This document shows, piece by piece, positions 3,006 to 62,011 of a DNA stretch of 64,000 nucleotides. Origin of the DNA: a virus; IMG/VR virus record IMGVR_UViG_3300020185_003648, positions 1 to 64,000 of that record, one strand, 5' to 3'. Both the position numbers and the translations under genes were made by a program. Numbering within the stretch: the first letter of the stretch is position 1; the number at the start of each line of letters is the position of its first letter. Below the pieces are notes generated by a model. The model was not told the origin of the DNA. It did no database searches and worked only from the letters and a program-made list of their open reading frames with translations.

Positions 3006-3036
3006 TAAATATACGAAGGCTGCCTATGGCAGCCAA
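3006..3036 (-). promoter_or_regulatory. Composite terminator/promoter element A
   Basis: On the minus strand: TTG (3036-3034), a 20-nt spacer, then TATATTTA (3013-3006) inside CGTATATTTAC. The spacer contains a 7-bp hairpin, GGCTGCC/GGCAGCC with a 3-nt loop (3018-3034), just after the stop of the upstream oxygenase. The layout matches the Bacteroidetes TTG/TAnnTTTG promoter. The hairpin probably ends the upstream unit. The box is 31 bases from the next ATG. Confidence 0.7.
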
Positions 3037-3047
3037 ATATTTTCGTA

Positions 3048-3605
3048 TTAAAGTGTAAATTTATTTTCTCGGACCCAGAATATTAATATCCATTTTTCAC
3101 CTTCAGTTACAGGTAATCCTGCATGCAATGAATCTTTATATGGTACGCCGTTTTTATCTACGTTATCCCAAACTACTACTTTACCTAATTCGGGGTGGGT
3201 AGTTTGGTCTATATTTGGAAAGTGCGTTTCACCTCCCTTAGGTACATCATTTAAATAGAATAATACACTGTATCTTCTTTGTCCACCTTTAGCTACTTCT
3301 TCATTATAATATTCTTCACCTTCAATAAAGTAGTCATAATGCACTTTATATTCACCTCCTTGAGTGTAGTATACAACATGAGGTGCTTCTTGATTTTCAA
3401 TTGGTAGACGAGTTAAACTCGCTACAATTGTTTTTATTTCATGTAATAAAGTATCATAATCAAATAACCAAGTACCTTGTGCCACTCTATAATTGTCTAA
3501 TTCATTACCACCTAATAATCCCGCTTGTTCTAAGTATGGAGATGCTAAGTTAATAACGTGTTGACACTCTTCAGGTGTGAGAATTTGTTTATATTCTTGT
3601 ACCAT
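3048..3605 (-). CDS. 2OG-Fe(II) oxygenase, prolyl-4-hydroxylase type
   Basis: A 185-residue protein of the P4Hc family. The metal site is visible as H..D in YKVHYDYF (about residue 110) and a distal His in DSLHAGLPV near residue 160, followed by a Lys (EGEKWIL) at the usual 2-oxoglutarate-binding position. YSVLFYLNDVPKGGETHFP is the typical strand pair between them. Such enzymes hydroxylate proteins or small molecules using Fe(II), O2 and 2-oxoglutarate. The target is unknown; this is one of six or more in the window. Confidence 0.88.
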   Translation of the reverse strand: MVQEYKQILTPEECQHVINLASPYLEQAGLLGGNELDNYRVAQGTWLFDYDTLLHEIKTIVASLTRLPIENQEAPHVVYYTQGGEYKVHYDYFIEGEEYYNEEVAKGGQRRYSVLFYLNDVPKGGETHFPNIDQTTHPELGKVVVWDNVDKNGVPYKDSLHAGLPVTEGEKWILIFWVRENKFTL

Positions 3606-3608
3606 AAT

Positions 3609-3959
3609 CTAATTTTTCCAAAATAATTGTATTGCTAATATACAAAATGCTAAAGCAATACAGGTTAATGACTTTAATGATAAGGGTTCTTTTAAAAATA
3701 TCCAAGTTAAAAACGCAAATAAAATTATACCAATACTAAAACCTATAAATCTACTAGGCCATACCAACCCATTAAACGCCCCAGCTATATGTTTTGTTGC
3801 CATAATTGACCCATATGATACAACTACTCCTACAGATGAAATTAATATAGGATTATCACTTGCCCATTTATTGAAAAATTGTAAGTGAGATTGAAACCAA
3901 ATTACAACTTGAGATGCTATAAAAAATAATATTCCTATTGTTAATGCTTTATAATCCAT
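3609..3959 (-). CDS. Small multi-pass membrane protein, DMT/EamA-like
   Basis: A 116-residue protein with about four hydrophobic segments (near residues 5-22, 40-55, 68-90, 96-113). LKEPLSLKSL before the last segment resembles the half-repeat of EamA/small-multidrug-resistance transporters. It probably sits in the inner membrane, possibly as a dimer, since full DMT carriers have ten helices. The substrate is unknown. Confidence 0.6.
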   Translation of the reverse strand: MDYKALTIGILFFIASQVVIWFQSHLQFFNKWASDNPILISSVGVVVSYGSIMATKHIAGAFNGLVWPSRFIGFSIGIILFAFLTWIFLKEPLSLKSLTCIALAFCILAIQLFWKN

Positions 3960-3978
3960 TATAACTTATTTATGTGAT

Positions 3979-4009
3979 TAAATATAAAAAGGCTCCCTAT
4001 GGGAGCCTA
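3979..4009 (-). promoter_or_regulatory. Composite terminator/promoter element B
   Basis: TATATTTA box at 3986-3979, 20-nt spacer, TAG in place of TTG at 4009-4007. The spacer holds a perfect 7-bp hairpin GGCTCCC/GGGAGCC (3991-4007) followed on the minus strand by TTTTTAT, a good intrinsic terminator for the MANLQ gene upstream. The box is 20 bases from the next ATG. Confidence 0.65.
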
Positions 4010-4039
4010 ATTTTTTTATAAAGTTTTACCTAACCAATA

Positions 4040-4189: not shown

Positions 4190-4221
4190 TGTTTTATGAT
4201 TTAATATTATAAATAATTTGT

Positions 4222-5172: not shown

Positions 5173-5192
5173 TAGTTAAGTTTTTATTTATA

Positions 5193-7065: not shown

Positions 7066-7066
7066 T

Positions 7067-10478: not shown

Positions 10479-10509
10479 TGAATATAAAAAGGCTCCATTA
10501 CGGAGCCAA
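10479..10509 (-). promoter_or_regulatory. Composite terminator/promoter element C
   Basis: TTG at 10509-10507, exactly 20 nt, TATATTCA at 10486-10479. The spacer contains the hairpin GGCTCC/GGAGCC (10491-10507, 5-nt loop) followed by TTTTTAT on the minus strand, an intrinsic terminator for the secreted nuclease gene. The box is 28 bases from the DUF4494-like ATG. Confidence 0.7.
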
Positions 10510-12780: not shown

Positions 12781-13182
12781 TTATTTAGTTAAACTTTCTC
12801 TAACTTCCTTAATGTGCTTACAATTGCCATTGCTTCTCCATGAACCCGGGCAAGAACATTTAATTGTTTTAGAGTCTATAACTGTAACGTAATATTTTTT
12901 ATCGCTACTAGATGATGCGAATTCGATGATACGCTTTTCCTTTGCTTTAGCAACCTTTATTTCAGGAAATATTATATCGTTTAATGTTGTTTTAGGGTGT
13001 ACTTTAATCCAAGATGGAGTATGAAATGTACCTTTTTCATTAGTTAGGAAACCACCTCGTACATTTGATTTAGGGACTTTATAGAAGTGCCTTGTAATCA
13101 TTGTTCCATTTGCTTCGTTTGGAGATAGGGATAATGCGTTTTCACTATAAACTATCTCATTATTTACTTTCCACAATGCCAT
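12781..13182 (-). CDS. SWIM zinc-finger-like protein
   Basis: A 133-residue protein ending in a SWIM motif, CSCPGSW...NCKH (CxC then CxH, near residues 110-125). SWIM domains bind zinc and contact DNA or protein. The N-terminal part is beta-rich with no known domain. It is the first gene after composite element D, heading a run of small genes down to the nuclease. Its specific role is unknown. Confidence 0.7.
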   Translation of the reverse strand: MALWKVNNEIVYSENALSLSPNEANGTMITRHFYKVPKSNVRGGFLTNEKGTFHTPSWIKVHPKTTLNDIIFPEIKVAKAKEKRIIEFASSSSDKKYYVTVIDSKTIKCSCPGSWRSNGNCKHIKEVRESLTK

Positions 13183-13207: not shown

Positions 13208-13238
13208 TAAATATACGAAGGCTGCCTACGGCAGCCTA
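13208..13238 (-). promoter_or_regulatory. Composite terminator/promoter element D
   Basis: TAG (for TTG) at 13238-13236, a 20-nt spacer, TATATTTA at 13215-13208 within CGTATATTTA. The spacer is the 7-bp hairpin GGCTGCC/GGCAGCC (13220-13236), the same stem as element A. It separates the 173-residue gene from the SWIM-protein operon; the box is 26 bases from the next ATG. Confidence 0.65.
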
Positions 13239-13783: not shown

Positions 13784-13811
13784 ATGAAATATAATTATAT
13801 ATTAATAAATA

Positions 13812-13831
13812 TTGCCCCCTTTCGGGGGCAA
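13812..13831 (-). terminator. Hairpin terminator with GAAA tetraloop
   Basis: An 8-bp perfect stem closes a GAAA loop on the minus strand (TTGCCCCC/GGGGGCAA), 9 bases after the stop of the DUF932 gene. AATATTTATTAAT follows rather than a strict T-run. The same stretch could also carry a weak promoter for the next gene, but the spacing does not fit the other nine elements. Confidence 0.7.
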
Positions 13832-13840
13832 TTAATTTTT

Positions 13841-14650
13841 TTATGCTACAAACTCTAAGGCACGTTCGTATAATTTCTGGTTTAAGTCCATATCTTGCTT
13901 AAAATTCTTGATTGGACGTGCTTGTCTAAGCTTACCTTTTGGTGTTTTGTACAGGAAATTACCTTCCATTATGTTTTCCTGTACACGATTGAAAGTTTCC
14001 CAAAGCCCTAATCCTTCATCTTGTGAACGTTGTGTTTGTAAAACACCTACAACTGCTAACTCAGTGATTTTATTATCAGTACCTTTAACTCTTTCTTCTA
14101 ATAATGCGGTAGCAAATTCGAATGCTTGAGTTTGAGTTAATTCCGTTGCTTTCATTTTATTCATTGATTCAACAGTTAATGGTAATTTTTCAACTAATGA
14201 TTTAATTACTTCTTGTAACGCTTCGAAATCATAACCCATATGTCTTACTTTATGGCTTTCGAATTGTGTAGTTGCTATAACTAATCCGTTTTCACATATA
14301 CATCTGAACAATCCTGCTTGGAATGAAAATGAATTTTTACCATCGTGGCTATTAGTTAATAAAATTTGTGGGTAAACTGTATCACCATCTGCACCATCAA
14401 TTACTACATCTGGGTTTCTAAGTACTACTAAGTGCTTTTGGAAACCTTTAGTTGTATCTTTTCTTGCTTTAACTTCTTTAGCATCAACTACTCCCCATCC
14501 TAATAATTCTAAATCACGAATTACAGTATCAGTTGGAATGTGTGTGTACTTGTCTGAAGTACTTTCGCTACTTGTTTTTGTAAAAATTGATGGAGTTGTT
14601 TCTCTTAATCTTTCTAAACTTTTGAACTCTGTGTTTTGATAATTTAACAT
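13841..14650 (-). CDS. DUF932 phage/plasmid-like protein
   Basis: A 269-residue protein matching the DUF932 (TIGR03299-like) pattern. It has LGWGVVDAKEVKARKD, HLVVLRNPDVV, a central GKNSFSFQAGLFRCICENGLVI and a helical C-terminus. The family is widespread in phages and plasmids and often abundant early after infection; its molecular function is not settled. It is driven by composite element E and ended by the GAAA hairpin, so it appears to be a single-gene unit. Confidence 0.82.
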   Translation of the reverse strand: MLNYQNTEFKSLERLRETTPSIFTKTSSESTSDKYTHIPTDTVIRDLELLGWGVVDAKEVKARKDTTKGFQKHLVVLRNPDVVIDGADGDTVYPQILLTNSHDGKNSFSFQAGLFRCICENGLVIATTQFESHKVRHMGYDFEALQEVIKSLVEKLPLTVESMNKMKATELTQTQAFEFATALLEERVKGTDNKITELAVVGVLQTQRSQDEGLGLWETFNRVQENIMEGNFLYKTPKGKLRQARPIKNFKQDMDLNQKLYERALEFVA

Positions 14651-14693: not shown

Positions 14694-14724
14694 TAAATAT
14701 ACGCTAGGCTTCCCGGGTAGCCAA
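14694..14724 (-). promoter_or_regulatory. Composite terminator/promoter element E
   Basis: TTG at 14724-14722, a 20-nt spacer, TATATTTA at 14701-14694 inside CGTATATTTAC. The spacer hairpin is built on the GGCT/AGCC arms around a CCCGGG palindrome (14707-14722). The element and about 20 bases beyond it are nearly repeated at 15179-15228 (element F), flanking two small genes. The box is 44 bases from the DUF932 ATG. Confidence 0.7.
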
Positions 14725-14742
14725 GTTTCCTGTGAATTACTT

Positions 14743-14961
14743 TTAAGAAAAGTTGGTAAAATACACCCAGTATCCTATATAATATAAAAGGAGACATATA
14801 TACCATCTTAATTTATATAACATTTTGTTTTTAAATTTATGTTCTGGGAAGATAGATTTATCTAGCTTTAAGGCTATAGGTTTTATTTGTTCCCATAGTA
14901 ATGCTAATAGGGCATATAGTAGAACTGCAATAATTAGATTTTCTGCTTGTTTTTTCTTCAT
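14743..14961 (-). CDS. Small membrane protein (72 aa)
   Basis: Two hydrophobic segments (about residues 7-23 and 52-68) with a basic loop between them (LKLDKSIFPEHKFKNKMLYKLR). It probably spans the inner membrane twice. The size and topology are holin-like, but it lies away from the amidase, so this is only one possibility. Confidence 0.65.
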   Translation of the reverse strand: MKKKQAENLIIAVLLYALLALLWEQIKPIALKLDKSIFPEHKFKNKMLYKLRWYICLLLYYIGYWVYFTNFS

Positions 14962-15178: not shown

Positions 15179-15209
15179 TAAATATACGAATGGCTTCCCG
15201 GGTAGCCAA
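15179..15209 (-). promoter_or_regulatory. Composite terminator/promoter element F
   Basis: TTG at 15209-15207, a 20-nt spacer, TATATTTA at 15186-15179 within CGTATATTTAC. It has the same CCCGGG-centred hairpin as element E (15192-15207). It follows the long envelope operon and would end it, while driving the 55-residue gene 30 bases downstream. Confidence 0.7.
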
Positions 15210-15226
15210 GTTTCCTGTGCATTACT

Positions 15227-16909
15227 TTAGAAAGAGAAACGAGAACCTATTGTATAATTTACTAGTACAGGAAAATTAGGTAATGTTGATGTAACAGCGT
15301 TTATACCTAAATTCATTCCAAATCGTTTAGTTAAATTAAATGTTCCACTTAGTCCACCTATAAACATTACATCTGTACTCCATGTTGTACGACGTGAGAA
15401 TGTCTCTAATGATACAAAGGGAGATGATATTGCTACCATAGGTGATACTGATACTCTACCTAATGGAATTGGTTTTGTATAGAATCCAGTTACTGATTGG
15501 GATAATATGTTTTCATCATAGTATATTAATCCGTTAACTACATTTAAGTCAAGTGCAGTTATTGATGTTCCTAAAGCGAATCCAGCTGCTGAACCTTTTT
15601 TACCTAAAAATACTACACTATGGTTCATCATTCCCATTACTGTAGTAAACATTTTAGCACCTCCTATTGATGCTGAGTATACCCTTGATGGTCTACCTTC
15701 TTTATTGATATGGATTTTAGTAAAACTAGCATTCACCATAAACTGTTGAAGGTTACTCCAGACCATTGTATTTAAACCATATGTCTTATCCCCCATCAGA
15801 GAAGAACGTGATACACCAAATGTAGAAGCATAGCTATAAGAACCATCCGGTCCTTGCATCATAGCTACGTTAGCTGTTATAATTGGAGGGGCTAATTGTC
15901 TAGCTTCTTTCTTCTTTTTCTTTTCCTCTTCCTTTTTCTTTTGTTCTTCTTCCTCTTTTTCCTTTTCCTTTTCCTCATCAGATTTCTCCTCCTTCTTCTC
16001 CTCTTCCTTTTCTTCCGTTTTTTCTTCTTCCTTAGATTCCTCTTCTTTAGTTTCCTCCTTTTGCTCTTCTTCTTTGGTTTCTTCTTTAGATTCTTCCTTA
16101 GTTTCCTCTTTAGTTTCTTCCGTCTTTTCTTCCTTTACTTCTTCAGTTTTTTCTTCAGATTTAGTTTCTTCTGTTTTAGTCTCTTCAGTTTTTGTCTCTT
16201 CTGTTGATGAACCTCCATCATTCGATTCACTACTTGAATTTCCCCCTTCAGTGCTTCCACCGCCATCTCCAGATGAATTCCCTTCAGTTGAGCCTGAAGA
16301 GCTAGTATCTGAACTTGAAGAAGTATCGCCTGAAGATGAACTACTAGACGATTGGTTGTTTGTTGTTGATGTATCATTTGAACTAGTATTAGTTGTACCT
16401 GTAGTACCAGTTGTTGAAGTATCACCTCCAGTTGTTCCTGTGGTACCGGTAGTAGTAGAACCAGTTGTTCCTGTAGTTGCAGTAGTTCCTGTTGTAGCTG
16501 TTTGTGTGGGTGCTGTAGTTGCTATAGGTGGAGGTGATGCAGGTACAGGTGGGGGGGCAGAGGCTGCTGCAGCAGCCGCAGCCGCAGCGGCAGCATCAGT
16601 TGCTTGTTGGGTTGTCTGTTGTGTTTGGGCTTGTGTTGTTGTAGCGTTTGTAGTTGCTGTTGAACATGGGTTTAATGACGCCCACCATAAGTATGTTTCT
16701 TCAAGCCATGCTTGCAATTCGCCATTTTGAAATTGCTGTGAGGTAAACGTTCTAGCCTTATTATAAAATACAACAGTTGCCTGTCCATTCATAGGAACAG
16801 TAAATACACTCACTGCTCCAGTACACCTATCTACATAGGTTTGTATAAGATTTTGAGAATATAAATTACTAAAACCTACTAAAAATAATATTAGTAGAAG
16901 TTTTTTCAT
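15227..16909 (-). CDS. Predicted secreted outer-membrane protein with low-complexity passenger
   Basis: A 560-residue protein with a clear signal peptide (ending NLYSQ). A short N-terminal domain has two Cys (DRCTG and NPCSTA). Then come an A/P/T-rich stretch, a long Thr/Gly and Ser/Gly repeat, and an E/K-rich segment (about residues 235-340). The last ~220 residues alternate in beta-strand fashion and end in SRFSF, a C-terminal Phe like the insertion signal of outer-membrane barrels. It probably exposes the repeat through the outer membrane. It is coupled by TAATG to the CsgG-like gene, suggesting the two work together. Homology outside the barrel is not expected. Confidence 0.65.
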   Translation of the reverse strand: MKKLLLILFLVGFSNLYSQNLIQTYVDRCTGAVSVFTVPMNGQATVVFYNKARTFTSQQFQNGELQAWLEETYLWWASLNPCSTATTNATTTQAQTQQTTQQATDAAAAAAAAAAASAPPPVPASPPPIATTAPTQTATTGTTATTGTTGSTTTGTTGTTGGDTSTTGTTGTTNTSSNDTSTTNNQSSSSSSSGDTSSSSDTSSSGSTEGNSSGDGGGSTEGGNSSSESNDGGSSTEETKTEETKTEETKSEEKTEEVKEEKTEETKEETKEESKEETKEEEQKEETKEEESKEEEKTEEKEEEKKEEKSDEEKEKEKEEEEQKKKEEEKKKKKEARQLAPPIITANVAMMQGPDGSYSYASTFGVSRSSLMGDKTYGLNTMVWSNLQQFMVNASFTKIHINKEGRPSRVYSASIGGAKMFTTVMGMMNHSVVFLGKKGSAAGFALGTSITALDLNVVNGLIYYDENILSQSVTGFYTKPIPLGRVSVSPMVAISSPFVSLETFSRRTTWSTDVMFIGGLSGTFNLTKRFGMNLGINAVTSTLPNFPVLVNYTIGSRFSF

Positions 16910-30789: not shown

Positions 30790-30798
30790 ATTTGTATA

Positions 30799-36081: not shown

Positions 36082-36085
36082 ATTT

Positions 36086-38152: not shown

Positions 38153-38153
38153 A

Positions 38154-38609: not shown

Positions 38610-39904
38610 TATGATGGTTTTTTAGGTAATGAGATTTTCTTGATGTTAGGTAATTTAATTTCTACCTTTTTAGGTGCATTAGCATCCATTATTGCCTCTA
38701 ATTTTTCTTGCATTTTTTCAAATGAGAAATTAGTTTTACAATAGTGTGATAAGCGTTTTCCTTTTTCAGCATATCCTTTATAGCTATTAAAATAGTCTTT
38801 TAATAATAAAGATGTAAAACTTACATCAGCTGAGAACCATTTAGAATCTTTAATAATTAACCTATCTTGAATAGCTGATTCGTGTACGGGTTTTAGTTCA
38901 CCTGGTATTAAACTTGCAAATTCAGGATTTAAGAAATCTAAATGTCCACTCCAGTTTGAAGCAATTACCGGTTTTTTACTTTGGGTAAATTCAAGTAATG
39001 GACGTCCAAAACCTTCACCTTTAGTTAAGTTAATCATTGCTTTAACTTTAGGGTGGTTATATAAATGGTTTACATCTTCATCATCTACTTCTCCATGAAT
39101 TAGATAAATGTTAGGTAATTTTCCACTTATGCTTTTACGAATAGCATCTATACGTTGTAATATAGTTTCTCTATCCATTATTGAAGCTGGACCAGACATT
39201 GTTTTCATAATCAGAGCAGGTTGTTTGCTTTTGTTTTTGAATGTCTCTAAGAATGTTTTAACTAATACAGCTACATTTTTTCTGTCTTCACCATAACTTC
39301 CTTTTAACCAATGTCCTACAAATAAGAAACAAAATGCTTCATCAATTGTGTCTAATGATTCTACTAATTCAGTTTTAGGTAAATCTTTAGGTTCGATATA
39401 AAAATATTTTTCTAAATCTACACCTTCAAATAATATATCTGCTTGTTTTTCAAATTTAACTACGCCTGTAGTATTATTCGCTTTATCCTTTTGCTCATAC
39501 TGAGTGTTTAGTAAAGCTGCTAATGAATGTTTAGATGAGCCTAAAATTAAATCCATGTTATTAGCACCTTGAATAAATCTTACATCACATGTATCAGTTT
39601 CAATCCCGGCAGTAATACCAATATTAAATTTACCTAATTTTTGAAATTCATCTGGGATAGATATTTGGATCCAAACATCAGGTTGTCTTTGTAATTGTGG
39701 GGGGATAATGTTATCTAATAATTTTTTATCTTCAGGATTATCTTCTTTTAAGAAACCAAATGGAGTATTTCCCCATCTTTGAGATATAAATTTAACATCA
39801 TATTTGTCTGAATTAACTAATGCCCTTGCTACGTCTCTTGCACGTGCACCGTAACCTGAAAATGTATCTAAGGGGCAGCTAACTACTATAAATGGTTTAC
39901 TCAT
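38609..39904 (-). CDS. GT-B glycosyltransferase (GT4-like)
   Basis: A 431-residue protein. The N-terminal domain starts VVSCPLDTFSGYGARARD and the C-terminal donor domain has LFVGHWLKGSYGEDRK and KAMINLTKGEGFGRPLLEF near residue 290, the E..G.G.P..E pattern of GT4 retaining enzymes. It is next to another GT-B gene with matching architecture; the two probably add successive sugars. No membrane segment is seen. Confidence 0.82.
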   Translation of the reverse strand: MSKPFIVVSCPLDTFSGYGARARDVARALVNSDKYDVKFISQRWGNTPFGFLKEDNPEDKKLLDNIIPPQLQRQPDVWIQISIPDEFQKLGKFNIGITAGIETDTCDVRFIQGANNMDLILGSSKHSLAALLNTQYEQKDKANNTTGVVKFEKQADILFEGVDLEKYFYIEPKDLPKTELVESLDTIDEAFCFLFVGHWLKGSYGEDRKNVAVLVKTFLETFKNKSKQPALIMKTMSGPASIMDRETILQRIDAIRKSISGKLPNIYLIHGEVDDEDVNHLYNHPKVKAMINLTKGEGFGRPLLEFTQSKKPVIASNWSGHLDFLNPEFASLIPGELKPVHESAIQDRLIIKDSKWFSADVSFTSLLLKDYFNSYKGYAEKGKRLSHYCKTNFSFEKMQEKLEAIMDANAPKKVEIKLPNIKKISLPKKPS

Positions 39905-39906
39905 AA

Positions 39907-41343
39907 CTAATATACTAATTTATGTCTTAATTTTTTAACTGGTAGTTTTTCAATTTTAACGAAATCAAATTTTCTTCTTGGAGTAAAGTTATTGATAGTT
40001 TCATCCATGTATTTGATAACGTTTTCATTCATTCTTCTTGCTGACATCATTGATTCATCTGAAGTAACCCATTCGCGGGCTGCTCTACCACCCTCTAATT
40101 TTTCTTCAGTAGACATTTCATAAGATTGGTTCATTGCTTTAGCCAATTCTTTAAAATCAAGATGATCTTCGAAAATATATGGTGTTTTTGGTGAACCTAC
40201 TAATGTAGCTACTGATGGGAATACGGGTATAGCCCATTTACCATGTTTTTTATAAGTTCCGTAATGGTTTGAAGGGAAATTTTCATCAAATTTGATCCAA
40301 TTTCCATTTTCATCTTCAAAACGCATTTGGTCTTGCATACCACCCGTAACATTAGCCATAATCATAGTTCCAGCCATCATTGATTCAGTTAATGCTAACC
40401 CCCATCCTTCGGCATTAGAAGGCAATATTGTAATATCAGCTAAATTATACAAGTAGTTCATACCTTCAGTTGATATTTTTCCACTTGAGAATTTTACACT
40501 TTCATCTTCTCCTAGGAATAAATCTCTTACAGCATATAAATCTGTACCATTTTCATCTATAGGTTGAGTGTGTAGTACTAATGCTACTTTATTTCTTTTA
40601 TCTTCAGGTAAATTTTCTTTAAATACTGAGTATGCCGCTATAAGGTTAGATATGGCTTTTCTTCTAATATTTCTTGAATTAAAGAAGAACACATGTTCAT
40701 ATTCTTTATCACCAAATAATTGCTTTTTAGCTTCTTGTAATTTATCCCACTTTTCATGTTTTTCAGTAATTGGAAAAAATTGTTCTTCATTTATACCATG
40801 TGGTACATAAGCTATAATTTTGTCTTTAGCTTTTTCACCTAAAACAATTTTATTAATGTTTTCAGTTTGTTTGGAGATTGCTAATAATGTATCACACGAT
40901 TCATAATATGATTCATTATACATTGGTGCAGGTAGGTCATCCCAAATATTTAAATATACCATAGGTACTTTGGTACGAATCTCATTTTCAATTTGAAATA
41001 ACCATTCCCAATATCTTGGATCTGTAAAGAAGAATATAGCGTCAGGTTTTTCGGTTTTAAGCATTTGGCGAATTATAGTAGAATCACCATACCCGTTTTG
41101 TGGGTAACAAAATACAGAAGCATCAGGTACACCTGCGCGATTACCTGTATCTTGACTTAAATCAATACGTTTTCCTTGTTCGGGGTGGTTTATTGCTGCA
41201 CCTAAATTAACCCAATTGTATTTGTGGCATGTTCCTAATATAATTTCTCGTGCCATTGTTGCAATACCGGAGTGCATGCGGATGTCGTCACAAAGGAATA
41301 GAATTTTTTTCCTTTGATCTTTTGGTAAATAACCTTCTTTCAT
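39907..41343 (-). CDS. GT-B glycosyltransferase (GT4-like)
   Basis: A 478-residue protein. ILFLCDDIRMHSGIATMARE opens the acceptor domain, FFFNSRNIRRKAISNLIAAY begins the donor domain, and ITILPSNAEGWGLALTESMMAG near residue 310 is the EGxGL..E motif of GT4 enzymes. It is the first gene of the glycan locus after a small DNA-binding-like protein. Likely cytoplasmic. Confidence 0.82.
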   Translation of the reverse strand: MKEGYLPKDQRKKILFLCDDIRMHSGIATMAREIILGTCHKYNWVNLGAAINHPEQGKRIDLSQDTGNRAGVPDASVFCYPQNGYGDSTIIRQMLKTEKPDAIFFFTDPRYWEWLFQIENEIRTKVPMVYLNIWDDLPAPMYNESYYESCDTLLAISKQTENINKIVLGEKAKDKIIAYVPHGINEEQFFPITEKHEKWDKLQEAKKQLFGDKEYEHVFFFNSRNIRRKAISNLIAAYSVFKENLPEDKRNKVALVLHTQPIDENGTDLYAVRDLFLGEDESVKFSSGKISTEGMNYLYNLADITILPSNAEGWGLALTESMMAGTMIMANVTGGMQDQMRFEDENGNWIKFDENFPSNHYGTYKKHGKWAIPVFPSVATLVGSPKTPYIFEDHLDFKELAKAMNQSYEMSTEEKLEGGRAAREWVTSDESMMSARRMNENVIKYMDETINNFTPRRKFDFVKIEKLPVKKLRHKLVY

Positions 41344-43469: not shown

Positions 43470-43694
43470 CTACTTGTATTCTTCTCTTAGTTCTTTTGGT
43501 AAAGTGTCTTCTAAAATAGCACCATTTTCTGGATCATAAAATACTGGGATTGGGACAATAGCGTCTTCACTAGTTCCAGTAATAAATTTAGATACTTTTC
43601 TTAGTATCATTCCTTGCTGCCAAACTTTACCTCCAGAAGGTGTGTCAATTGCTGTTGTTTTGGATAAATCCAAATTCATTTGTGGTTGTTCCAT
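43470..43694 (-). CDS. Hypothetical protein in clamp-loader cluster
   Basis: A 74-residue protein. GGKVWQQGMILRKVSKFITG and the central acidic part, with IVPIPVFYDPENG, suggest a small beta fold. Its stop is one base before the gp62 ATG, and its ATG overlaps the gp44 stop by one base. That exact packing argues for a replication role or simple conservation of order. No family known to me. Confidence 0.65.
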   Translation of the reverse strand: MEQPQMNLDLSKTTAIDTPSGGKVWQQGMILRKVSKFITGTSEDAIVPIPVFYDPENGAILEDTLPKELREEYK

Positions 43695-44605
43695 TAGAAT
43701 GGTTTTAATAAGTTAGCGATACATCCCATAAAGGTAATTTCTTTATCCGGAGCCATTACGGATTGATATTGTGATTCGGCAATAATAATGGTACCTAACA
43801 CTGGGTTATGGAATGAATCTAAATTGTTATATAAGGCTCTGTATAATTCATTATAATCTCTAATGTTTGAATCTGCTACGATTTGACGTATTTGATTAAA
43901 AGCACTAGGTTCGTTAGATGAAATCAATTCAATGATTTTATCTGTGTATTGTTTTTGGTTTACAATCTTTTTATTGAGTTCAAGTTTATTGTCTTTAACA
44001 CATGATTGTAATAAATTTAATGTCTTTCTAATATCAGGGTATGTTTTGTTGATAATTTCAACTAAATCCTCTTTATTAAATTCAACATTTTCTCCTTGTA
44101 ATATATTAACACATCTTTTGGCAACCTCGCCTTTTGATGGAGGTGTTATTTCGTATACTGATGTTCTAGATTGTATTGGATCGATTATACGTTCAACATA
44201 GTTACAAGTAAAGATAAAACGTGTTGTAATAGAAAATGTTTCAATTACGTTACGTAATGCCGCTTGTGCGTTGATCGTTAGAAAATCAGCTTCATCCATT
44301 ATAACCACCTTTAAAGCGCGGAATGTCGCAGCAGATGCGAATGATTTTACCTTATCTCTAATTGTTTCTATACCATTTTCATCTGAACAGTTGACGTATA
44401 AGAAATCGCAATCTATATTACTTGTAATTAGTTTAGCAGCAGTAGTTTTACCTGTTCCTGCTGCACCGTATAATAATAGATGTGGTAAGTCTTGTTTTTC
44501 GATCCATTGGTTTAGATCTTGTTTAAAACCATCATTTCCAATGTAATCTGCGGGATCAGTTGGGCGGAATTTTTCTGTAAATAATGTATGTTCTCTAACT
44601 AGCAT
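43694..44605 (-). CDS. 44: Clamp-loader AAA+ subunit, gp44-like
   Basis: A 303-residue AAA+ ATPase. LLLYGAAGTGKTTAAKL (Walker A, about residue 42), VVIMDEADFL (Walker B), RFIFTCNYVERI (sensor 1) and SRTSVYEI (SRC-like Arg) are all intact. It opens and loads the sliding clamp on DNA, working with gp62 nearby and gp45 at 47666-48385. Composite element G lies just upstream, and the leader ends AAGGTTAC before the ATG. Confidence 0.92.
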   Translation of the reverse strand: MLVREHTLFTEKFRPTDPADYIGNDGFKQDLNQWIEKQDLPHLLLYGAAGTGKTTAAKLITSNIDCDFLYVNCSDENGIETIRDKVKSFASAATFRALKVVIMDEADFLTINAQAALRNVIETFSITTRFIFTCNYVERIIDPIQSRTSVYEITPPSKGEVAKRCVNILQGENVEFNKEDLVEIINKTYPDIRKTLNLLQSCVKDNKLELNKKIVNQKQYTDKIIELISSNEPSAFNQIRQIVADSNIRDYNELYRALYNNLDSFHNPVLGTIIIAESQYQSVMAPDKEITFMGCIANLLKPF

Positions 44606-44621: not shown

Positions 44622-44652
44622 TGAATATAATAAAAATAAATGGGGAAGCCAA
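44622..44652 (-). promoter_or_regulatory. Composite terminator/promoter element G
   Basis: TTG at 44652-44650 (it forms the loop of a hairpin), a 20-nt spacer, TATATTCA at 44629-44622. The hairpin GGGGAAGC/GCTTCCCC (44642-44660) has an 8-bp stem and a 3-nt loop and lies just after the H1-like gene. A T-rich run (TTTATTTTTATT) follows it. It should terminate the groES-groEL-H1 unit and start the gp44 unit 17 bases downstream. Confidence 0.72.
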
Positions 44653-44667
44653 GCTTCCCCACATAAA

Positions 44668-47098: not shown

Positions 47099-47129
47099 TA
47101 AATATACGAACATTCGTTCGATAAACCAA
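47099..47129 (-). promoter_or_regulatory. Composite terminator/promoter element H
   Basis: TTG at 47129-47127, a 20-nt spacer, TATATTTA at 47106-47099 inside CGTATATTTAC. The spacer includes a short hairpin, CGAAC/GTTCG (47107-47120). It follows the Hsp20 gene and drives the chaperonin genes. A TCTAGAGCGAG sequence adjoining it (47131-47141) is repeated inverted upstream of Hsp20. Confidence 0.7.
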
Positions 47130-47130
47130 G

Positions 47131-47641
47131 TCTAGAGCGAGAAATATTTACTTGATTTGTAGAGTTTTTAACTCTGAACCTTTAGCGAAAGGTACACTAA
47201 TAGTCAATAATCCGTTTTCGAATTTTGCTATGGCTTTTGATAAATCGAATTTAGAATCGATTTTCCAACCAAAGTTAAAAGAACGTTTAGCAATACCCTT
47301 GTGGATATAGTCTACATCTTCTTCTTCTTTAGCTTTTGTGTAATTAATGCGAAGAACATTGTCTTGAAGTAAAATTTCAATGTCTTCTTTAGCGATACCA
47401 GTACAGGCAACATCAAAGATAAGTCCTTTGTCGTTTGTATAGATGTCTACTGGGTGGGATAATTTGGTTTGGTCTAGCGGTGAATATTGGCTAGCGTCTT
47501 GAAAGAAATTTCTAACTAAAATGTCGAACGGATTACGTTCATAAAATAATGTACTCATAATGATTTACGTTTGTGACGTCCTAAGATCGTCGGTTTAAAA
47601 ATTGATTTAATATAACATTTACATAACTAACTCGCTCTAGA
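47131..47641. repeat. 11-bp inverted repeat flanking the Hsp20 gene
   Basis: TCTAGAGCGAG at 47131-47141 and its exact reverse complement at 47631-47641 bracket the Hsp20 gene. The TCTAGA core is itself a palindrome and each copy lies next to a TTG. They may be operator-like sites or ends of an inserted segment. Only 11 bases match fully, so chance is possible. Confidence 0.5.
47148..47558 (-). CDS. Hsp20 small heat-shock protein
   Basis: A 136-residue alpha-crystallin-domain protein. FDVACTGIAKEDIEILLQDN begins the domain, and FENGLLTISVPFAKGSE is the conserved GxLxxxxP-like end motif. It binds unfolding proteins without ATP. It sits between the clamp gene and the GroES/GroEL unit, so folding functions are grouped. 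An upstream TATATTTA box (about 47653-47660) lacks a clear TTG at the usual spacing. Confidence 0.88.
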   Translation of the reverse strand: MSTLFYERNPFDILVRNFFQDASQYSPLDQTKLSHPVDIYTNDKGLIFDVACTGIAKEDIEILLQDNVLRINYTKAKEEEDVDYIHKGIAKRSFNFGWKIDSKFDLSKAIAKFENGLLTISVPFAKGSELKTLQIK

Positions 47642-47665
47642 GTCAAGGTTTGCTATAAATATATG

Positions 47666-48385: not shown

Positions 48386-49083
48386 GTTAATAAATGTAAT
48401 AATTTTTCAGTGTCTTTCCAACTCTTTACGTGATGAATTTTACAATCCTTCCGTTTTTGAGAAATAATTTGTTGTTGTATAGGAAAATCATTCCCCCCTG
48501 GTTGTAGTCTATCTCCAAAGAATATAAATTTGTCTTTTATATCTTTTACAATTTGTCCTTTGTCTTTACCTTTTTCATATATATCAATACTAATTTCTCC
48601 ACCTACTACAGCATCTAACCCTGGGTGTTTTTCTCTAATTTTACAAGCAAATTTCTTACGTTCTTGATGTTTTTTATCCCATGCTCCATAATGTTCTCTT
48701 TGCTCTTGGTTACAACTTCTACCTATAACAGAAAAATTAACAGCACCCTCTCGTTGTTCAATATGATTTCCATATCGGTAGGGATATTTAGATTTTTCTA
48801 AAAACCTTTTTAATAAATCTTCACATTGGGTTGGAAGATTAAACTCATGTTGGTATTCTAACTTATTATTAATAAAAAGTTGATTGCCTGAATTTTGGTA
48901 GCAACGTTCTACTGAACCCCATATATCAAAACCCAATTGTTCAATTGTTTTATCTTTATCACTGCCTGAAATTAACCATACACTATTTTTCTTAATAAAT
49001 GATTGAAAAAATGTTTTAAAACTGGGGTCAATTAACCCTCGGAAGGGAGTTAATGTTCCATCGACATCAAAAATATAAATCAT
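48382..49083 (-). CDS. Eukaryotic-type phosphomannomutase (HAD-IIB)
   Basis: A 233-residue protein with FDVDGTLTP (catalytic Asp pair), VNFSVIGRSCNQEQRE, KIREKHPG, and GGEISIDIYEKGKDK, then FFGDRLQPGGNDFPI. These match the PMM1/PMM2-type fold, including GGEIS and the FGD..PGGND metal loop, rather than bacterial ManB/PgmB enzymes. It should interconvert mannose-6-P and mannose-1-P, supplying GDP-mannose for gmd. It is coupled by ATGA to the gp43 C-terminal gene. Confidence 0.85.
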   Translation of the reverse strand: MIYIFDVDGTLTPFRGLIDPSFKTFFQSFIKKNSVWLISGSDKDKTIEQLGFDIWGSVERCYQNSGNQLFINNKLEYQHEFNLPTQCEDLLKRFLEKSKYPYRYGNHIEQREGAVNFSVIGRSCNQEQREHYGAWDKKHQERKKFACKIREKHPGLDAVVGGEISIDIYEKGKDKGQIVKDIKDKFIFFGDRLQPGGNDFPIQQQIISQKRKDCKIHHVKSWKDTEKLLHLLT

Positions 49084-50006
49084 GTAAAAAACTGGTTAAC
49101 GTAAGGGTTTGTATTTAACCTCCATTCTAAATCTTCGTAAAAACCTTCTAATTTATTTAATAATATTGTGTCAAATACTTTTTCTTTATCAGCAAATTTA
49201 TCTAAGAAATCTTTAATTTTATCAGGCATATCAAAATCAAGATAAGCTAACGCTTCAATTTGAAATGGGTTCTTTTTTAAGTAAATCCATTTTACTTTAT
49301 CACCTTGAACAATTTGACTATATGTCTTATCTAATTTCCAATATTTTAATAAATCATTATATTTAATTGTAGCACGTACTGCAGCAGGTGCTCCTTTACG
49401 GATTACTGTAAATATTTCTGTGCCTACTGGTTTACGTTCAATATATTTGTTTAGAGTTTTTACACCTTGTGGGTTTCCTAACTCATTAATTGGCATTGAA
49501 TGTAATATCTTTTGTTTGAAATCCAAAATTCTTGTATCGATTTCTCCTTGAGGTGTTCCTTTTAAAACATCTTCAAGTACATTTTTAAAGAAATTACCAA
49601 ACACTTTAGGAAAGTTAGATTTTTTATATTCTAATCCTTTTACATCAAGTGATTCTTTTACAATACCTTCTTGTTTTGTAATCCACTGAGCATATCTACG
49701 TGTTGCTCTAAAGTATGCTGAACGAATAACACATTCAGTTTTCATTTCGAGACGATGTGTACCTTGTATATTGAAGCAGTTGCGAGCTAAATTGTCGTAT
49801 TCTTCGTTTATAACATCTTGATATTTTAACGCAACCTTTTCTAGTATATCATCCTTTTCTTCTTCCGGGAATTCTTCAAAGTTAGGATATAAGTGTTTTA
49901 GAAGAGGTTCCGCATTAAAGTAGTTTGAATCCGTGTCAACGTAAGCACAGTAGTTTACGTCTTCTTCATCGCAAATAAACCAAGGTGTATCTTCTATGTG
50001 TTTCAT
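49080..50006 (-). CDS. 43: Family B DNA polymerase C-terminal part (gp43 split)
   Basis: A 308-residue protein containing polymerase motif C, YVDTDSNYF at residues 22-30, followed by TRRYAQWI (KKRYA-like, primer-DNA contact) and the thumb (residues ~130-308). It lacks exonuclease and motifs A and B, which are encoded at 55221-56984. The two lengths sum to 895, close to T4 gp43. The protein begins just before motif C and could fold with its partner as a split enzyme. Its start overlaps the upstream stop as TAATG. Confidence 0.9.
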   Translation of the reverse strand: MKHIEDTPWFICDEEDVNYCAYVDTDSNYFNAEPLLKHLYPNFEEFPEEEKDDILEKVALKYQDVINEEYDNLARNCFNIQGTHRLEMKTECVIRSAYFRATRRYAQWITKQEGIVKESLDVKGLEYKKSNFPKVFGNFFKNVLEDVLKGTPQGEIDTRILDFKQKILHSMPINELGNPQGVKTLNKYIERKPVGTEIFTVIRKGAPAAVRATIKYNDLLKYWKLDKTYSQIVQGDKVKWIYLKKNPFQIEALAYLDFDMPDKIKDFLDKFADKEKVFDTILLNKLEGFYEDLEWRLNTNPYVNQFFT

Positions 50007-54958: not shown

Positions 54959-55221
54959 TAAAATCTTGTACCGTCTCCGGGTAATTTAACTACACCTGCA
55001 TCAATTTCACCTTCACTGTTTAGTATACGCTCTCTTAATTTAATTTCAAAGTTTATTCCATCAAACTTAAATTTTCCTCCCTGTTGGAGCATTTTACGGA
55101 AAAATACTTCTCTTTTTTCACTCCAATCTTGGCTCATTTCTATGAGTTCTTCTTTTGTAGCGTGGTGATCGTTTACCATTACGTGAACTCCTTGTCTTAA
55201 TACTTGTTTTGTTAATGCCAT
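54958..55221 (-). CDS. Hypothetical protein after gp43 N-terminal gene
   Basis: An 87-residue protein. ATKEELIEMSQDWSEKREVFFRKML is helical and ERILNSEGEIDAGVVKLPGDG recalls short phage proteins. Its start overlaps the stop of the polymerase gene by one base, and its stop overlaps the fusion gene, so the sugar cassette may have been inserted after this gene. Function unknown. Confidence 0.65.
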   Translation of the reverse strand: MALTKQVLRQGVHVMVNDHHATKEELIEMSQDWSEKREVFFRKMLQQGGKFKFDGINFEIKLRERILNSEGEIDAGVVKLPGDGTRF

Positions 55222-56984
55222 TATAGTTCTATTTTAATTTCGTTTTTAATTACTTTATTCATATGTCTGTTAGCACATAGTGCTGATTCTTGTATAATTC
55301 TCCATCCTGACAATGTAATTGCTTCTGATAGTATTGACATAGGCATTCCATATCTAAATGAAGGTAATGCTGTTGCTCCATAAAGTGAGTTAAGTAGGAT
55401 TTTCATTGTGTACTGTAGTAAGTGGTTTTTTTCTCCACCCTCTGTATCGCCTGCTTTGTATGCTTTTTTCATTCTATTTTTATACAAAACACGTTCATCA
55501 AACCATTTGTTTAGGATAGTTGATAATACCGATTCTTTATCTGTTCTAAAAAAGCAACCATTTGCGGATACAGTCCATTTATTCTTTTCTATTAAAGCTA
55601 TAAGTTTTTCTACTGTAACTGTAGCTGCTTTTTCTCTATGATTTTTAATAATAAGTTCCCTTTCAGGGTCCATATTTTTTAAATCACTTAGTCCGAAATA
55701 ATTGTTACGGTCTGGTTTACCACTATATGGACCAAAATCTTGTAAGTTTTCGGGTAAATCTTCAGGTACAATCCTTCCCATAAAGGTTTCTTGTCCTATG
55801 TTTAGGGACATAATGATTGAAGGATATAAAGAAGTTAAATCCTCATCAAACATATATTTATACAAACCTGCTTTAGGACAAAATAAATAACCACCTGCAT
55901 AGTTAAGTTTTTTAGCACCCATAGGGCGATTTGGTGGAATTATTCCTTTTGAAAGTAGATATGCTGAAATAGCACCATCATGTATTTTAGAGGAGGCATA
56001 TACTTCGCTATAATTTACTTTACCTTTATGTGCTAAGTTTTTTGTTAAGGCTAGATATTGAAGTTTTTTATCTAGTTCAACTAAGATTTCAACATCGACA
56101 AAGTTATATTGAATAAACTTGTGAATGTCTTCTTCAAATAACCTATCAAGTGAACCCTCGTATTCGATTTTATTGATACCTACATATTTTTCTCCAATGG
56201 CATCTAGTTTCCAAGATGGTTCGTCTTCCCACCCATATTTTTTATGTAATCGCATGTAATCCAGCGATTGTAAGCCGATTATATCAACAAATTGGTCTGC
56301 TTTATACCAGTATTCGCCTTTAGATACTTTATCGTCTACTAGCCCAATAGGTGATAAACGCTTTGCTTCAGAATCACCTAAAACATTACACATTCTGTAA
56401 TATAGGTAAGGGATATCGAAGTAATCACTATTGTATCCTACTAAAATATCAGGGTTGATTTCCTCCATTTTGTTGAGAAACATATCAAGTAAATCTGCTT
56501 CATGTGAAACAGGTATAATCTCCTTATTTTTATTTTCTCCTGTTTTAGTATGTTTTAATTGTCCCTTTTTATCTAAGATAATAATAGACCAATGGTCTGC
56601 TTGTTTATCATACCAAGCAATTGAAGTTACAGGTTTAGGTGCAGATGCTATATATTCTTCTGTAAGTGCTCCTCCCATTTCAATCTCGATATCGAAAAAT
56701 ACTTCTCTGTGGGTAGTAGAAGGTTCATCGTTTATACCATAGGTTTCAATAAGGAACTTTTGGTGGGCTGATATATCATGGAAATGTAATCCCATGTCTC
56801 CTTTTTTAGCATCGTTGGTTCTAACTAGTTTTTCACCATTTAGACCTCTATAAGGGGCATCATCAGAATTTACTTCTCTATAGGAGTGGTTCTTCCATTT
56901 GATTTGGTGGTAACCTTCGTCGTCCCATAAATGAATGAGGTGTTTGTTTTGACCAGCACCTTGAGCATGAATTTTTTTATACAT
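55221..56984 (-). CDS. 43: Family B DNA polymerase N-terminal part (gp43 split)
   Basis: A 587-residue protein. The 3'-5' exonuclease carries ExoI (FFDIEIE, about residue 96), ExoII (VGYNSDYFD, about 180) and ExoIII (YNFVDVEILVELD, about 295). The polymerase half has motif A (DLTSLYPSI, about 385) and motif B (KILLNSLYGA, about 533), then ends in NKVIKNEIKIEL, before motif C. Motif C and the thumb lie at 49080-50006. It is not a partial record: a stop codon and a coupled gene follow. Confidence 0.92.
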   Translation of the reverse strand: MYKKIHAQGAGQNKHLIHLWDDEGYHQIKWKNHSYREVNSDDAPYRGLNGEKLVRTNDAKKGDMGLHFHDISAHQKFLIETYGINDEPSTTHREVFFDIEIEMGGALTEEYIASAPKPVTSIAWYDKQADHWSIIILDKKGQLKHTKTGENKNKEIIPVSHEADLLDMFLNKMEEINPDILVGYNSDYFDIPYLYYRMCNVLGDSEAKRLSPIGLVDDKVSKGEYWYKADQFVDIIGLQSLDYMRLHKKYGWEDEPSWKLDAIGEKYVGINKIEYEGSLDRLFEEDIHKFIQYNFVDVEILVELDKKLQYLALTKNLAHKGKVNYSEVYASSKIHDGAISAYLLSKGIIPPNRPMGAKKLNYAGGYLFCPKAGLYKYMFDEDLTSLYPSIIMSLNIGQETFMGRIVPEDLPENLQDFGPYSGKPDRNNYFGLSDLKNMDPERELIIKNHREKAATVTVEKLIALIEKNKWTVSANGCFFRTDKESVLSTILNKWFDERVLYKNRMKKAYKAGDTEGGEKNHLLQYTMKILLNSLYGATALPSFRYGMPMSILSEAITLSGWRIIQESALCANRHMNKVIKNEIKIEL

Positions 56985-59653: not shown

Positions 59654-59657
59654 AAGT

Positions 59658-60323: not shown

Positions 60324-60326
60324 ATC

Positions 60327-61022
60327 TTATATATTATGTCCTCCGTTATTAATTTTTAAACTATCAAAAAACTCTTTACGAGCATTATTAGTATCGTCTC
60401 TAAAGGCTCCTGATGCTTTAGTTGTTACCATTGCTGCTCCTTGATGTTTAACACCTCTACAGGATACACAATTATGTGTTCCTACGATTGTTACAATTAC
60501 ACCTAAGTTACCTTCTGTAATTTTTTCTACAGCATTATGAATGGCTGATGTTAATTGTTCTTGGATTGCTCCTCTTCTACCAAATAATTCTACAATACGA
60601 TTTAATTTAGATAAACCAATTACTTGACCATCTGCTCCGGCGATATATCCAATATGAACTACGCCTCCAATTGTTTGGTGGTGGTGCGAACACATCGAAG
60701 TTAACGGTATATTACGCTCGATAATTACACCATCATAACCATCACTAGGAAATGAAGTTATTTCGCTCATCGCCGTGTATCTACCTGCCCACAGGTCATT
60801 TACGTATGCTTTTGCTACACGTCTTGGTGTTTCCATTGAGTTTGGATCGTTTCTCCAATCACATTTAAGAGCATCTAAAAACTGACCGTAGGCAACTTCT
60901 GCTTCGTCTATCATTTTTAATTTTTCATTGTCTGTGAATGGGAAGCCTTCTGCTACCCCGTTTGCGAAACCGGTTTGTACAACCTCTAAATTTACGTGTT
61001 GTTTTCTTCTGTTATTTGCCAT
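60327..61022 (-). CDS. folE: GTP cyclohydrolase I
   Basis: A 231-residue protein. METPRRVAKAYVNDLWAGRY, LTSMCSHHHQTIGGVVHIGY and NCVSCRGVKHQGA give the zinc Cys-His-Cys set and catalytic His. It opens GTP to dihydroneopterin triphosphate, the first step to queuosine and folate. With QueE encoded next to it, the likely product is a 7-deazaguanine base. The ATG overlaps a 56-residue gene. Confidence 0.93.
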   Translation of the reverse strand: MANNRRKQHVNLEVVQTGFANGVAEGFPFTDNEKLKMIDEAEVAYGQFLDALKCDWRNDPNSMETPRRVAKAYVNDLWAGRYTAMSEITSFPSDGYDGVIIERNIPLTSMCSHHHQTIGGVVHIGYIAGADGQVIGLSKLNRIVELFGRRGAIQEQLTSAIHNAVEKITEGNLGVIVTIVGTHNCVSCRGVKHQGAAMVTTKASGAFRDDTNNARKEFFDSLKINNGGHNI

Positions 61023-61182
61023 ATATAAACTTTGTTGTTTGATCTTTACTTTGTATTGATATTCCCTCTAATGTAAGTGAAATTAATTCGAAATCCAAGT
61101 TTTCTAAATAAGAAATTATGTGATGGGGTTCAATTATTTTTTGAACCCACATCTCGTGAAGTACTTCTAACTTACTATTCAT
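61012..61182 (-). CDS. Small protein between queE and folE (56 aa)
   Basis: Reads MNSKLEVLHEMWVQKIIEP then helical residues ending FIYGK. It begins at a TAATG overlap with the queE stop and ends overlapping the first codons of folE by 11 bases, so it is translationally coupled to both. It could be a small partner of the 7-deazaguanine enzymes. No family recognised. An 8-bp inverted repeat (GGGTTCAA/TTGAACCC, 61124-61148) lies in its code. Confidence 0.65.
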   Translation of the reverse strand: MNSKLEVLHEMWVQKIIEPHHIISYLENLDFELISLTLEGISIQSKDQTTKFIYGK

Positions 61183-61961
61183 TATACCTCTCTTTGATCT
61201 TCAAAAGCTATAATGTGAGGTCTCCAAGTTAATCTGTAACCATTATCTCTCACCCAATCAAACATTAAAGGGTATGATTTAAATAAAGCTTCTCGTGAAT
61301 CTCCTGCAGGCATAAACCATACTTTATCTTTTGGTATTTCCATACCATTGATAAAATCTAAGATTTCGTTTAATGAACCTTGGTCTTTACCATCCCATAC
61401 TGGTTTAATATGGTAATCTGAGTGGTAGTTGATACTTAGCTTAATAGCTGCTAAGTTCATTCTAAGTTTGTTGTGTTGTTTTACCATTCTTTCGTCCGTG
61501 ATTCCACCTTGAGGGGTTTCAACGCCAATAACAGGGACTGAATTGCTGAACTTAGGAGAAATCGAGAGCAAATTGATAGGATAGTCAGTTTCAAGAAAAT
61601 GCGATCCTTCAGTTTCGATAGTGATAAAAATATTATTTTCATGTGCGAAGTGTGTTAATTCATTTACTAATTTACCATGCATTGTAGGTGAACCTCCTGT
61701 TAACATCATTTCTTTGATGTGAGGGTTTGCCTTATACATTTCGATAATATCGTTAAATGTAAATGAACCTTTTTCAGGATGGATACTAGTGTACCATGAA
61801 TCGCACCAACCACCTTCGCCGAAATAGCATCTGTGGGTGCAACCTGTTGTTCTAATTACTACTGTGGGGTATCCTGCTCGTGAACCTTCACTTTGGACAG
61901 CCGTGTAAATTTCTACAATAGGTAAAACCTTATTGTAGTCTTCAATTCTTCCTAAAGACAT
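61182..61961 (-). CDS. queE: 7-carboxy-7-deazaguanine synthase (QueE, radical SAM)
   Basis: A 259-residue radical SAM protein. IVEIYTAVQSEGSRAGYPTV, the cluster region CTHRCYFGEGGWCDSW near residue 41, MMLTGGSP and IETEGS are typical of QueE. The third Cys lies seven residues after the second, so the spacing reads CX3CX7C rather than CX3CX2C. It makes CDG from carboxy-tetrahydropterin. QueD and QueC are not in this window. Driven by composite element I. Confidence 0.88.
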   Translation of the reverse strand: MSLGRIEDYNKVLPIVEIYTAVQSEGSRAGYPTVVIRTTGCTHRCYFGEGGWCDSWYTSIHPEKGSFTFNDIIEMYKANPHIKEMMLTGGSPTMHGKLVNELTHFAHENNIFITIETEGSHFLETDYPINLLSISPKFSNSVPVIGVETPQGGITDERMVKQHNKLRMNLAAIKLSINYHSDYHIKPVWDGKDQGSLNEILDFINGMEIPKDKVWFMPAGDSREALFKSYPLMFDWVRDNGYRLTWRPHIIAFEDQREV

Positions 61962-61980
61962 ATTATAACTTTTATTTGTG

Positions 61981-62011
61981 TAAATATAATAACCTATTGG
62001 CTACAAGCCAA
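61981..62011 (-). promoter_or_regulatory. Composite terminator/promoter element I
   Basis: TTG at 62011-62009, a 20-nt spacer, TATATTTA at 61988-61981. The spacer contains the hairpin TTGGCT/AGCCAA (61997-62011) just after the tail-fibre stop, so it would end that unit. The box is 20 bases from the queE ATG, and the leader is nearly pure AT. Confidence 0.7.

Follow-up and report, generated by a model that had tools for sequence, protein, structure and literature searches.

Can a single short element both end the transcript of one phage gene and start that of the next? The question is raised by a 64,000-nt stretch of viral DNA (the window), which makes up the first 64,000 nt of the 65,483-nt IMG/VR virus record IMGVR_UViG_3300020185_003648. 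A first-pass annotation of the window pointed to nine minus-strand sequences in which T(T/A)G is followed by exactly 20 nt and then by TATATT(T/C)A, and proposed that each is a promoter with a terminator-like stem-loop nested between or across its two boxes. Comparison of these sequences with those of relatives suggests that such a composite is probably a fused terminator–promoter located where two phage genes of the same strand adjoin. Confidence in the anatomy of the element is high; that its hairpin terminates transcription can be proposed with moderate confidence.

All nine sequences are present as described, and all lie on the coding (minus) strand, with TTG as the first box in seven and TAG in two. 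Across the entire record, TTG-N20-TATATTYA occurs seven times, in every case on the reverse strand, compared with no forward-strand matches and none for a reversed control pattern. On the minus strand of the window, a spacing of 20 nt accounts for these seven matches, and each other spacing between 8 and 39 nt for at most one. The spacing does not recur at equal frequency in random sequence, a check proposed at first pass: a first-order Markov null gave a mean of 0.21 matches at 20 nt and a maximum of 2 in 200. Each of the nine sites lies 5–30 nt past the stop codon of an ATG-initiated open reading frame (ORF) of at least 35 aa, and the next ATG of such an ORF begins 16–43 nt downstream. The upstream ORF closest to sites 44622, 3979 and 14694 is in each case short (49–72 aa) and putative.

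Folding of the 43 nt that end before each TATATT box, compared with 200 dinucleotide shuffles, revealed a hairpin above chance at five of the nine sites (z from -3.1 to -4.3; 0/200 shuffles as good at each). In the composite at 3006–3036, TTG occupies 3034–3036, TATATTTA occupies 3006–3013 and the hairpin GGCTGCC-ATA-GGCAGCC spans 3018–3034 (z -3.74). The composite at 3979–4009 carries TAG at 4007–4009, TATATTTA at 3979–3986 and the hairpin AGGCTCCC-ATA-GGGAGCCT at 3990–4008 (z -3.12), and that at 10479–10509 carries TTG at 10507–10509, TATATTCA at 10479–10486 and the hairpin GGCTCC-GTAAT-GGAGCC at 10491–10507 (z -3.77). TAG is again found at 13236–13238 in the composite at 13208–13238, together with TATATTTA at 13208–13215 and the hairpin AGGCTGCC-GTA-GGCAGCCT at 13219–13237 (z -4.31). 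The fifth composite, at 44622–44662, precedes the clamp-loader gene (43694–44605); its TATATTCA lies at 44622–44629, and its TTG (44650–44652) forms the loop of the hairpin GTGGGGAAGC-TTG-GCTTCCCCAT, which occupies 44640–44662 in the fold (z -4.27).

At the remaining four sites the promoter is of the form TTG-N20-TATATTTA. The site at 61981–62012, ahead of a QueE-like gene (61182–61961), has a marginal hairpin around TTGGCT-TGT-AGCCAA, at 61996–62012 in the fold (z -1.64; 11/200). Hairpins are at chance level at 14694–14724, ahead of a DUF932-type gene (13841–14650), at the near-identical 15179–15209 and at 47099–47129, where 101, 103 and 89 of 200 shuffles, respectively, fold as well. The first-pass view that a stem-loop falls at every site was therefore overstated and is rejected. 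At 14694 and 15179, the GGCTACC beside TTG matches the shared promoter consensus. The promoter of site 14694 is retained in many relatives; inspected by eye, many of its orthologues keep TTGGCTnCC or TTGGATACC, with a stem evident in some and not in others. Directly upstream of TTG, a AAAGTAATGCACAGG-like block, possibly an additional promoter or regulatory element, is seen in many promoters of DUF932-type genes (window 14725–14745 and 15210–15230; loci L130–L209).

The promoter motif itself is shared well beyond the window. Among 80 homologous loci, TTG stands 20 nt ahead of TATATTYA 173 times; for any other spacing between 10 and 34 nt the count is only 4–23. A non-redundant logo of 118 sites, 114 of them on the coding strand, reads T-TTGG-mTACCCrAGA-N5-TTCG-TATATTyA-C and then becomes A-rich. 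In Flavobacterium phage vB_FspM_immuto (immuto), a cultured relative, 39 coding-strand TTG boxes stand 20 nt ahead of TATATT, compared with three on the other strand. With the looser pattern T[T/A]G-N20-TAWWTT, immuto has 45 coding-strand and 29 other-strand sites; strong hairpins accompany nine of the former (those at 22069, 25489, 64499, 69567 and 130543 among them) and none of the latter, and several have a textbook T run. The 20-nt interval is the promoter spacing of a T4-related phage group, which probably infects flavobacteria.

A search of relatives, with hairpins counted against shuffled sequence as the first-pass annotation had proposed, shows that nesting is strongly non-random. Of 142 non-redundant T[T/A]G-N20-TATATTYA sites, 33 fold at -12 kcal/mol or below, versus 1.55 ± 1.29 after column shuffling (maximum 6 in 100), and only 0–2.1% reach -12 kcal/mol in four flanking control windows. 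A wider set began with 914 raw matches to T[T/A]G-N20-TATATT, of which 485 were promoter-like and 317 remained after dereplication; here a strong stem is present at 64 sites, compared with 2.7 ± 1.3 in column-shuffled sets (maximum 6 of 40). Column shuffling preserves the consensus and not the relatedness of sites, which were dereplicated beforehand at 75% identity (142-site set) or 72% identity (317-site set). Most promoters of this consensus are plain, with no strong stem, and a sizeable minority carry a genuine hairpin.

An independent test selected hairpins with a 3′ end within 6 nt of TATATTYA, blind to TTG. This yielded 50 non-redundant hairpins on the coding strand versus two on the other. 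TTG lay at exactly 20 nt in 27 of the 50 and TAG in 11 (38 together), compared with at most two occurrences of TTG or TAG at each of the other spacings from 12 to 29 nt. With the shorter box TATATT, the test gave 93 coding-strand and 13 other-strand hairpins, with T(T/A)G at 20 nt in 61 of the 93. The stem starts at base 2 or 3 of the first box in 18 of the 38 cases with a 20-nt spacing, and the box starts 3–10 nt into the hairpin in the other 20; the promoter spacing is therefore held while the stem register shifts. TAG is commoner where the stem starts at G (10/25 versus 40/292, p = 0.002). Covariation of the middle base of the -33 box (TTG or TAG) with the base opposite was also considered and is unproven, since that pair had helped to choose the stem: when the stem was picked without it, A stood opposite T in 9/10 and T opposite T in 12/15 (p = 0.63).

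Two further kinds of hairpin near an AT-rich box were noticed. At loci L190, L196, L206 and L207, a hairpin-abutted TATATT follows AAAGGAAGCCCT...AGGGCTTTCG with no TTG at 20 nt, in multiple copies in some loci; these boxes could be another composite subtype or a dispersed repeat. By eye, hairpins at 13811–13832 (minus strand) of the window and at L301–L309 and L336–L344, many with a T run, are followed about 5–16 nt later by a TATTTAT-like sequence, likewise with no TTG at 20 nt, and are possibly a second (late?) class of terminator–promoter.

The nature of the hairpin is most evident at the clamp-loader junction. T[T/A]G-N20-TATATT occurs past the stop codon in 33 of the 38 loci L257–L294; these 33 sequences, 14 of them distinct, were aligned, and the five loci with no match were left out, as were L248, L249 and L254, which have the element in another register. 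The order in all 33 is stop codon, T(T/A)G, hairpin and TATATT. Across the nine pairs of the stem, 96% of cells are paired, versus 67% in shuffled alignments, and 32 cells are altered on both sides, versus 9.7 (0/500 shuffles for each). The covariation score is 0.795, compared with 0.244 ± 0.043 after shuffling (0/500) and 0.08–0.31 for slid controls. Every cell of the inner eight pairs is a standard or G-U pair, and the outermost pair is unpaired in five of the 14 rows. Among the 64 strong stems of the 317-site set there are 39 G-U and three A-C pairs, compared with shuffled-column means of 1.2 and 0.9. The G-U bias, together with the clamp-loader covariation, points to a hairpin formed in sense-strand RNA. 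The window's own clamp-loader site has a different stem, that in which TTG is the loop; among its closer relatives (L220–L256), some retain a hairpin and a less exact promoter and many have neither, as judged by eye.

Composites also differ from plain promoters in their placement. Eight records, among them the window and six uncultured contigs in which every gene was defined simply as an ATG-initiated ORF, gave 48 composites (-9 kcal/mol or below) and 150 plain promoters. ORFs contain none of the composites and 11% of the plain promoters. A stop codon is found no more than 40 nt upstream of 81% of the composites (median distance 21 nt), compared with 50% of the plain promoters outside ORFs (median 42 nt). 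For the Fisher test on stop distance, counts were rebuilt from rounded fractions.

It is proposed that the composite is read twice. As DNA, it would be a promoter: TTG would serve as the -33 box and TATATTYA as the -7 box (both positions approximate), separated by a spacer of constant length, 20 nt, that often ends in TTCG. In RNA transcribed from the upstream gene, the spacer, either alone or together with adjacent sequence 5′ of the -33 box, would fold into a GC-rich hairpin, with the -7 box and the preceding Ts supplying its U-rich tail. Upstream transcription would end where the next unit begins, within an element of about 31 nt, and the overlapping boxes would start that next unit; host RNA polymerase, phage-modified or not, would be expected to initiate a few nucleotides past the -7 box. 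Because the folded stretch is upstream of the expected start, the hairpin RNA would be present only in the transcript of the upstream unit, and any modulation of transcription by the hairpin, as suggested at first pass, could act only on that transcript or on the DNA. The composite terminator–promoter proposed at first pass is well supported in its anatomy by the location past stop codons, the fixed spacing and phase-locking, the covariation and the excess of G-U pairs, and it also occurs in immuto; it does not stand as a description of every site.

Several observations weigh against a fused terminator–promoter. Three of the window's nine sites lack a hairpin above chance, and a scan of viral contigs for TTGGCT-N17-TATATTTA returned at least 161 sites in at least 120 stretches, among which 114 of the 161 listed fold more weakly than -5 kcal/mol and 20 of those listed reach -10 kcal/mol. 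In the window and six uncultured contigs, with the same definition of genes as ATG-initiated ORFs, a hairpin accompanies only 53 of the 167 promoters that lie between genes; of the 147 coding-strand hairpins in this intergenic space, 53 belong to such a promoter and 94 do not. Neither the hairpin nor the promoter partner is therefore universal. Enrichment of T ahead of the box is modest at hairpin sites of the 317-site set. Instead of an uninterrupted T run, the stem is often followed by TTCGTATATTT, and in most of the aligned clamp-loader sequences by ATATATTATAAAA, which fits classical intrinsic termination poorly. At that junction, two-sided changes affect seven of the nine pairs, a count that 60/500 shuffles also reached, and 43/500 shuffles reached the observed number of further pair types.

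The poor tails bear on a different role for the same hairpin. It could be an RNA processing element, or one that protects the 3′ end of the upstream mRNA, and share promoter space because intergenic space is scarce. Such an element would leave the same sense-strand RNA signature; composites do lie directly past stop codons, and the clamp-loader stems mostly have GAAA (GNRA-type) loops and no U tract. This role is nonetheless unlikely, since many composites consist of a stem and a T run, as at immuto 64499 and 25489 and at the G002 and G011 sites, and since processing or protection has no need for a stem locked 0–6 nt from TATATT with TTG at 20 nt. A regulatory DNA palindrome, whether it binds a dimeric repressor as an operator or extrudes as a cruciform between the two boxes, is very improbable. 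Inverted repeats between -33 and -7 do occupy what is generally regarded as the classical operator position, but their arms vary in sequence between sites of one genome and covary between relatives, and an excess of G-U over A-C pairs is unexpected for a DNA palindrome. There is similarly little chance that the stem is a mere by-product of the promoter consensus TTGGmTACCCrAGA with no nesting at all: sites 14694, 15179 and 47099 and the weakly folding majority of the listed TTGGCT-N17-TATATTTA sites agree with this, but column shuffles that keep the consensus fall far short of the observed number of strong stems, and stems of differing sequence occupy the same place. The virion RNA polymerase of phage N4 uses promoters with small hairpins. 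Promoters of that type are barely conceivable here, although no search aimed at such a polymerase was made, as the two-box TTG-N20-TATATT motif is of Bacteroidota type and 253 of the 317 promoter-like sites have no strong stem.

If the composite is indeed a fused terminator–promoter, its two halves might be coupled. RNA polymerase halted by the hairpin would be situated over the next -7 box, termination would feed or gate initiation, and the stem-to-box register would be selected for this coupling and not for economy of space. Such a relay is improbable. If it were true, T4-related phages of different bacterial phyla would have kept the coupling and swapped its promoter language for that of the host.

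The phage and its likely host can be placed from protein matches. Window proteins match a T4-type clamp loader, DNA polymerase (two ORFs), GroEL, QueE and GTP cyclohydrolase. The product of gene 13841–14650 is 40.5% identical to a DUF932 protein of immuto, and the window GroEL is 55% identical to that of immuto. Immuto infects Flavobacterium sp. LMO8, has a genome of 160 kb and encodes T4-like Gp20 and Gp23. In the window and in six contigs that are related or share the motif, 0–2.6% of genes are preceded by Shine–Dalgarno cores, compared with 14/32 in RB49 by the same test; Bacteroidetes are naturally without such cores according to an excerpt of PMC6847099. From the immuto matches and the scarcity of these cores, the host is likely to be flavobacterial. 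No near DNA match to window positions 1–25000, the part covered by the search, was found in a cultured-phage collection. Searches for a gp55-type sigma factor (phrog_234) gave weak matches in four of ten records and none in the window's own record, which is possibly a fragment. No homologue was found for window positions 2604–2975, and one for 12781–13182.

Other features of the window stand apart from the promoter elements. The two DNA polymerase ORFs (49080–50006 and 55221–56984) correspond to the C- and N-terminal parts of phrog_262 and lie about 5 kb apart with other genes between them. The region 27700–41343 contains five ORFs that match a nucleotide-sugar epimerase family (phrog_540), an aminotransferase and two glycosyltransferases, and forms a phage sugar biosynthesis cassette. 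Short inverted copies, CTCGCTCTAGA and TCTAGAGCGAG, at 47130–47141 and 47631–47642 surround a small gene (47148–47558).

Among known systems, the promoter half of the element most resembles the Bacteroidota sigma-A promoter (-33 TTTG and -7 TAnnTTTG), with TTG and TAnnTT at matching places and a set distance. The host form is given as TAnnTTTG with a near-invariant G at -5, and its -33 element in F. johnsoniae as 'much less evident', in the excerpted text of PMC6847099; part of PMC9723704 also gives TAnnTTTG. The phage form instead has A at -5, and it adds a strict 20-nt spacing, a strong -33 box and the extensions TTGG and TTCG. For TTG relative to TA..TTTG, no peak at 20 nt was found in the 80 homologous loci. 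Cellular genomes seldom contain the exact extended form, which occurs in 10 stretches of a collection of 84,980 species' genomes: four lie beside homologues of phage ORFs, four in one Chryseobacterium genome (three readable and near-identical) and two in other Bacteroidota bins. In contigs of Chryseobacterium potabilaquae (L210, L212 and L218), near-identical TTGGATACC...TTCGTATATTTA stretches precede the same coding start, and these repeats are perhaps an insertion sequence. The relatives provide a precise promoter consensus for these phages.

The hairpin half resembles an intrinsic (rho-independent) terminator in its GC-rich stem, short loop, often T-rich tail and position past stop codons. 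It differs in that the -7 box itself forms the tail or continues it, and in that some tails are not rich in T; a stem followed by a U tract is clear at many sites and absent in most rows of the clamp-loader junction.

The closest parallel to the whole is the promoter-early stem-loop (PeSL) of T4-type phages such as RB49 and phi1, reportedly described by Arbiol et al. in 2010 and Comeau et al. in 2014. The stem-loops are said to have been shown in those papers to terminate transcription, and the PeSL promoter to be strong and sigma70-like. PeSLs are presented as a composite promoter–terminator motif that mediates shuffling in T4-like phages in part of PMC4503421. The first-pass annotation knew of no description of a nested arrangement; that nothing comparable has been described is not supported: PeSLs are known in T4-type phages, and RB49 DNA (positions 1–50000) has hairpins that fill the spacer between the -35 and -10 boxes near 43031, 33335 and 25338, in TTGACA-GGGGATCGGTGATCCCC-TATACT and two similar sequences. 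Five further stems there span the -10 box. Such nesting was seen in 3/50 loose RB49 promoter matches versus 0/50 in each of four flanks; with a stricter pattern that excludes TATACT, 10 of 23 promoters have a stem upstream of, across or downstream of the boxes, and none is fully nested. For Bacteroidota phages, no description of the nested form was found among the papers listed, a partial coverage of the literature.

Gene shuffling through copies of the element was considered as well. Sites 14694 and 15179 flank small ORFs (55 and 72 aa) in a 576-nt gap, for which only two of 80 loci are comparable: each has a single site, which lies in a gap of 77 nt in L163 and, in L170, in one of 1651 nt that also holds a 525-aa ORF. 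Homogenisation of the copies in one genome was examined as a sign of recombination and rejected, as identity within genomes is raised no more for composites than for plain promoters (within minus between about 0.046 versus 0.060).

Like PeSLs, the elements described here are compact fusions of a promoter and a stem-loop between same-strand genes of T4-related phages, as the T4-type clamp loader of the window and the T4-like Gp20 and Gp23 of immuto attest. They differ in their boxes, which are sigma70-like in RB49 (TTGACA and TATACT or TATAAT) and TTG-N20-TATATTYA with TTCG ahead of the second box here, and in their geometry, since full nesting is rare in RB49 and the stem is phase-locked to the -7 box in the flavophage elements. 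As the sigma70-like boxes are absent, the flavophage elements are better regarded as a variant of PeSLs than as members of the class. Composite terminator–promoters are thereby extended from coliphages to mostly uncultured phages with a Bacteroidota-type promoter, which suggests that the architecture itself, and not a given sequence, is under selection. The cultured pair of immuto and Flavobacterium sp. LMO8 offers a place to test whether termination and re-initiation are coupled. The flavophage arrangement probably works as PeSLs do in T4-type coliphages, its promoter being of Bacteroidota and not of sigma70 type.

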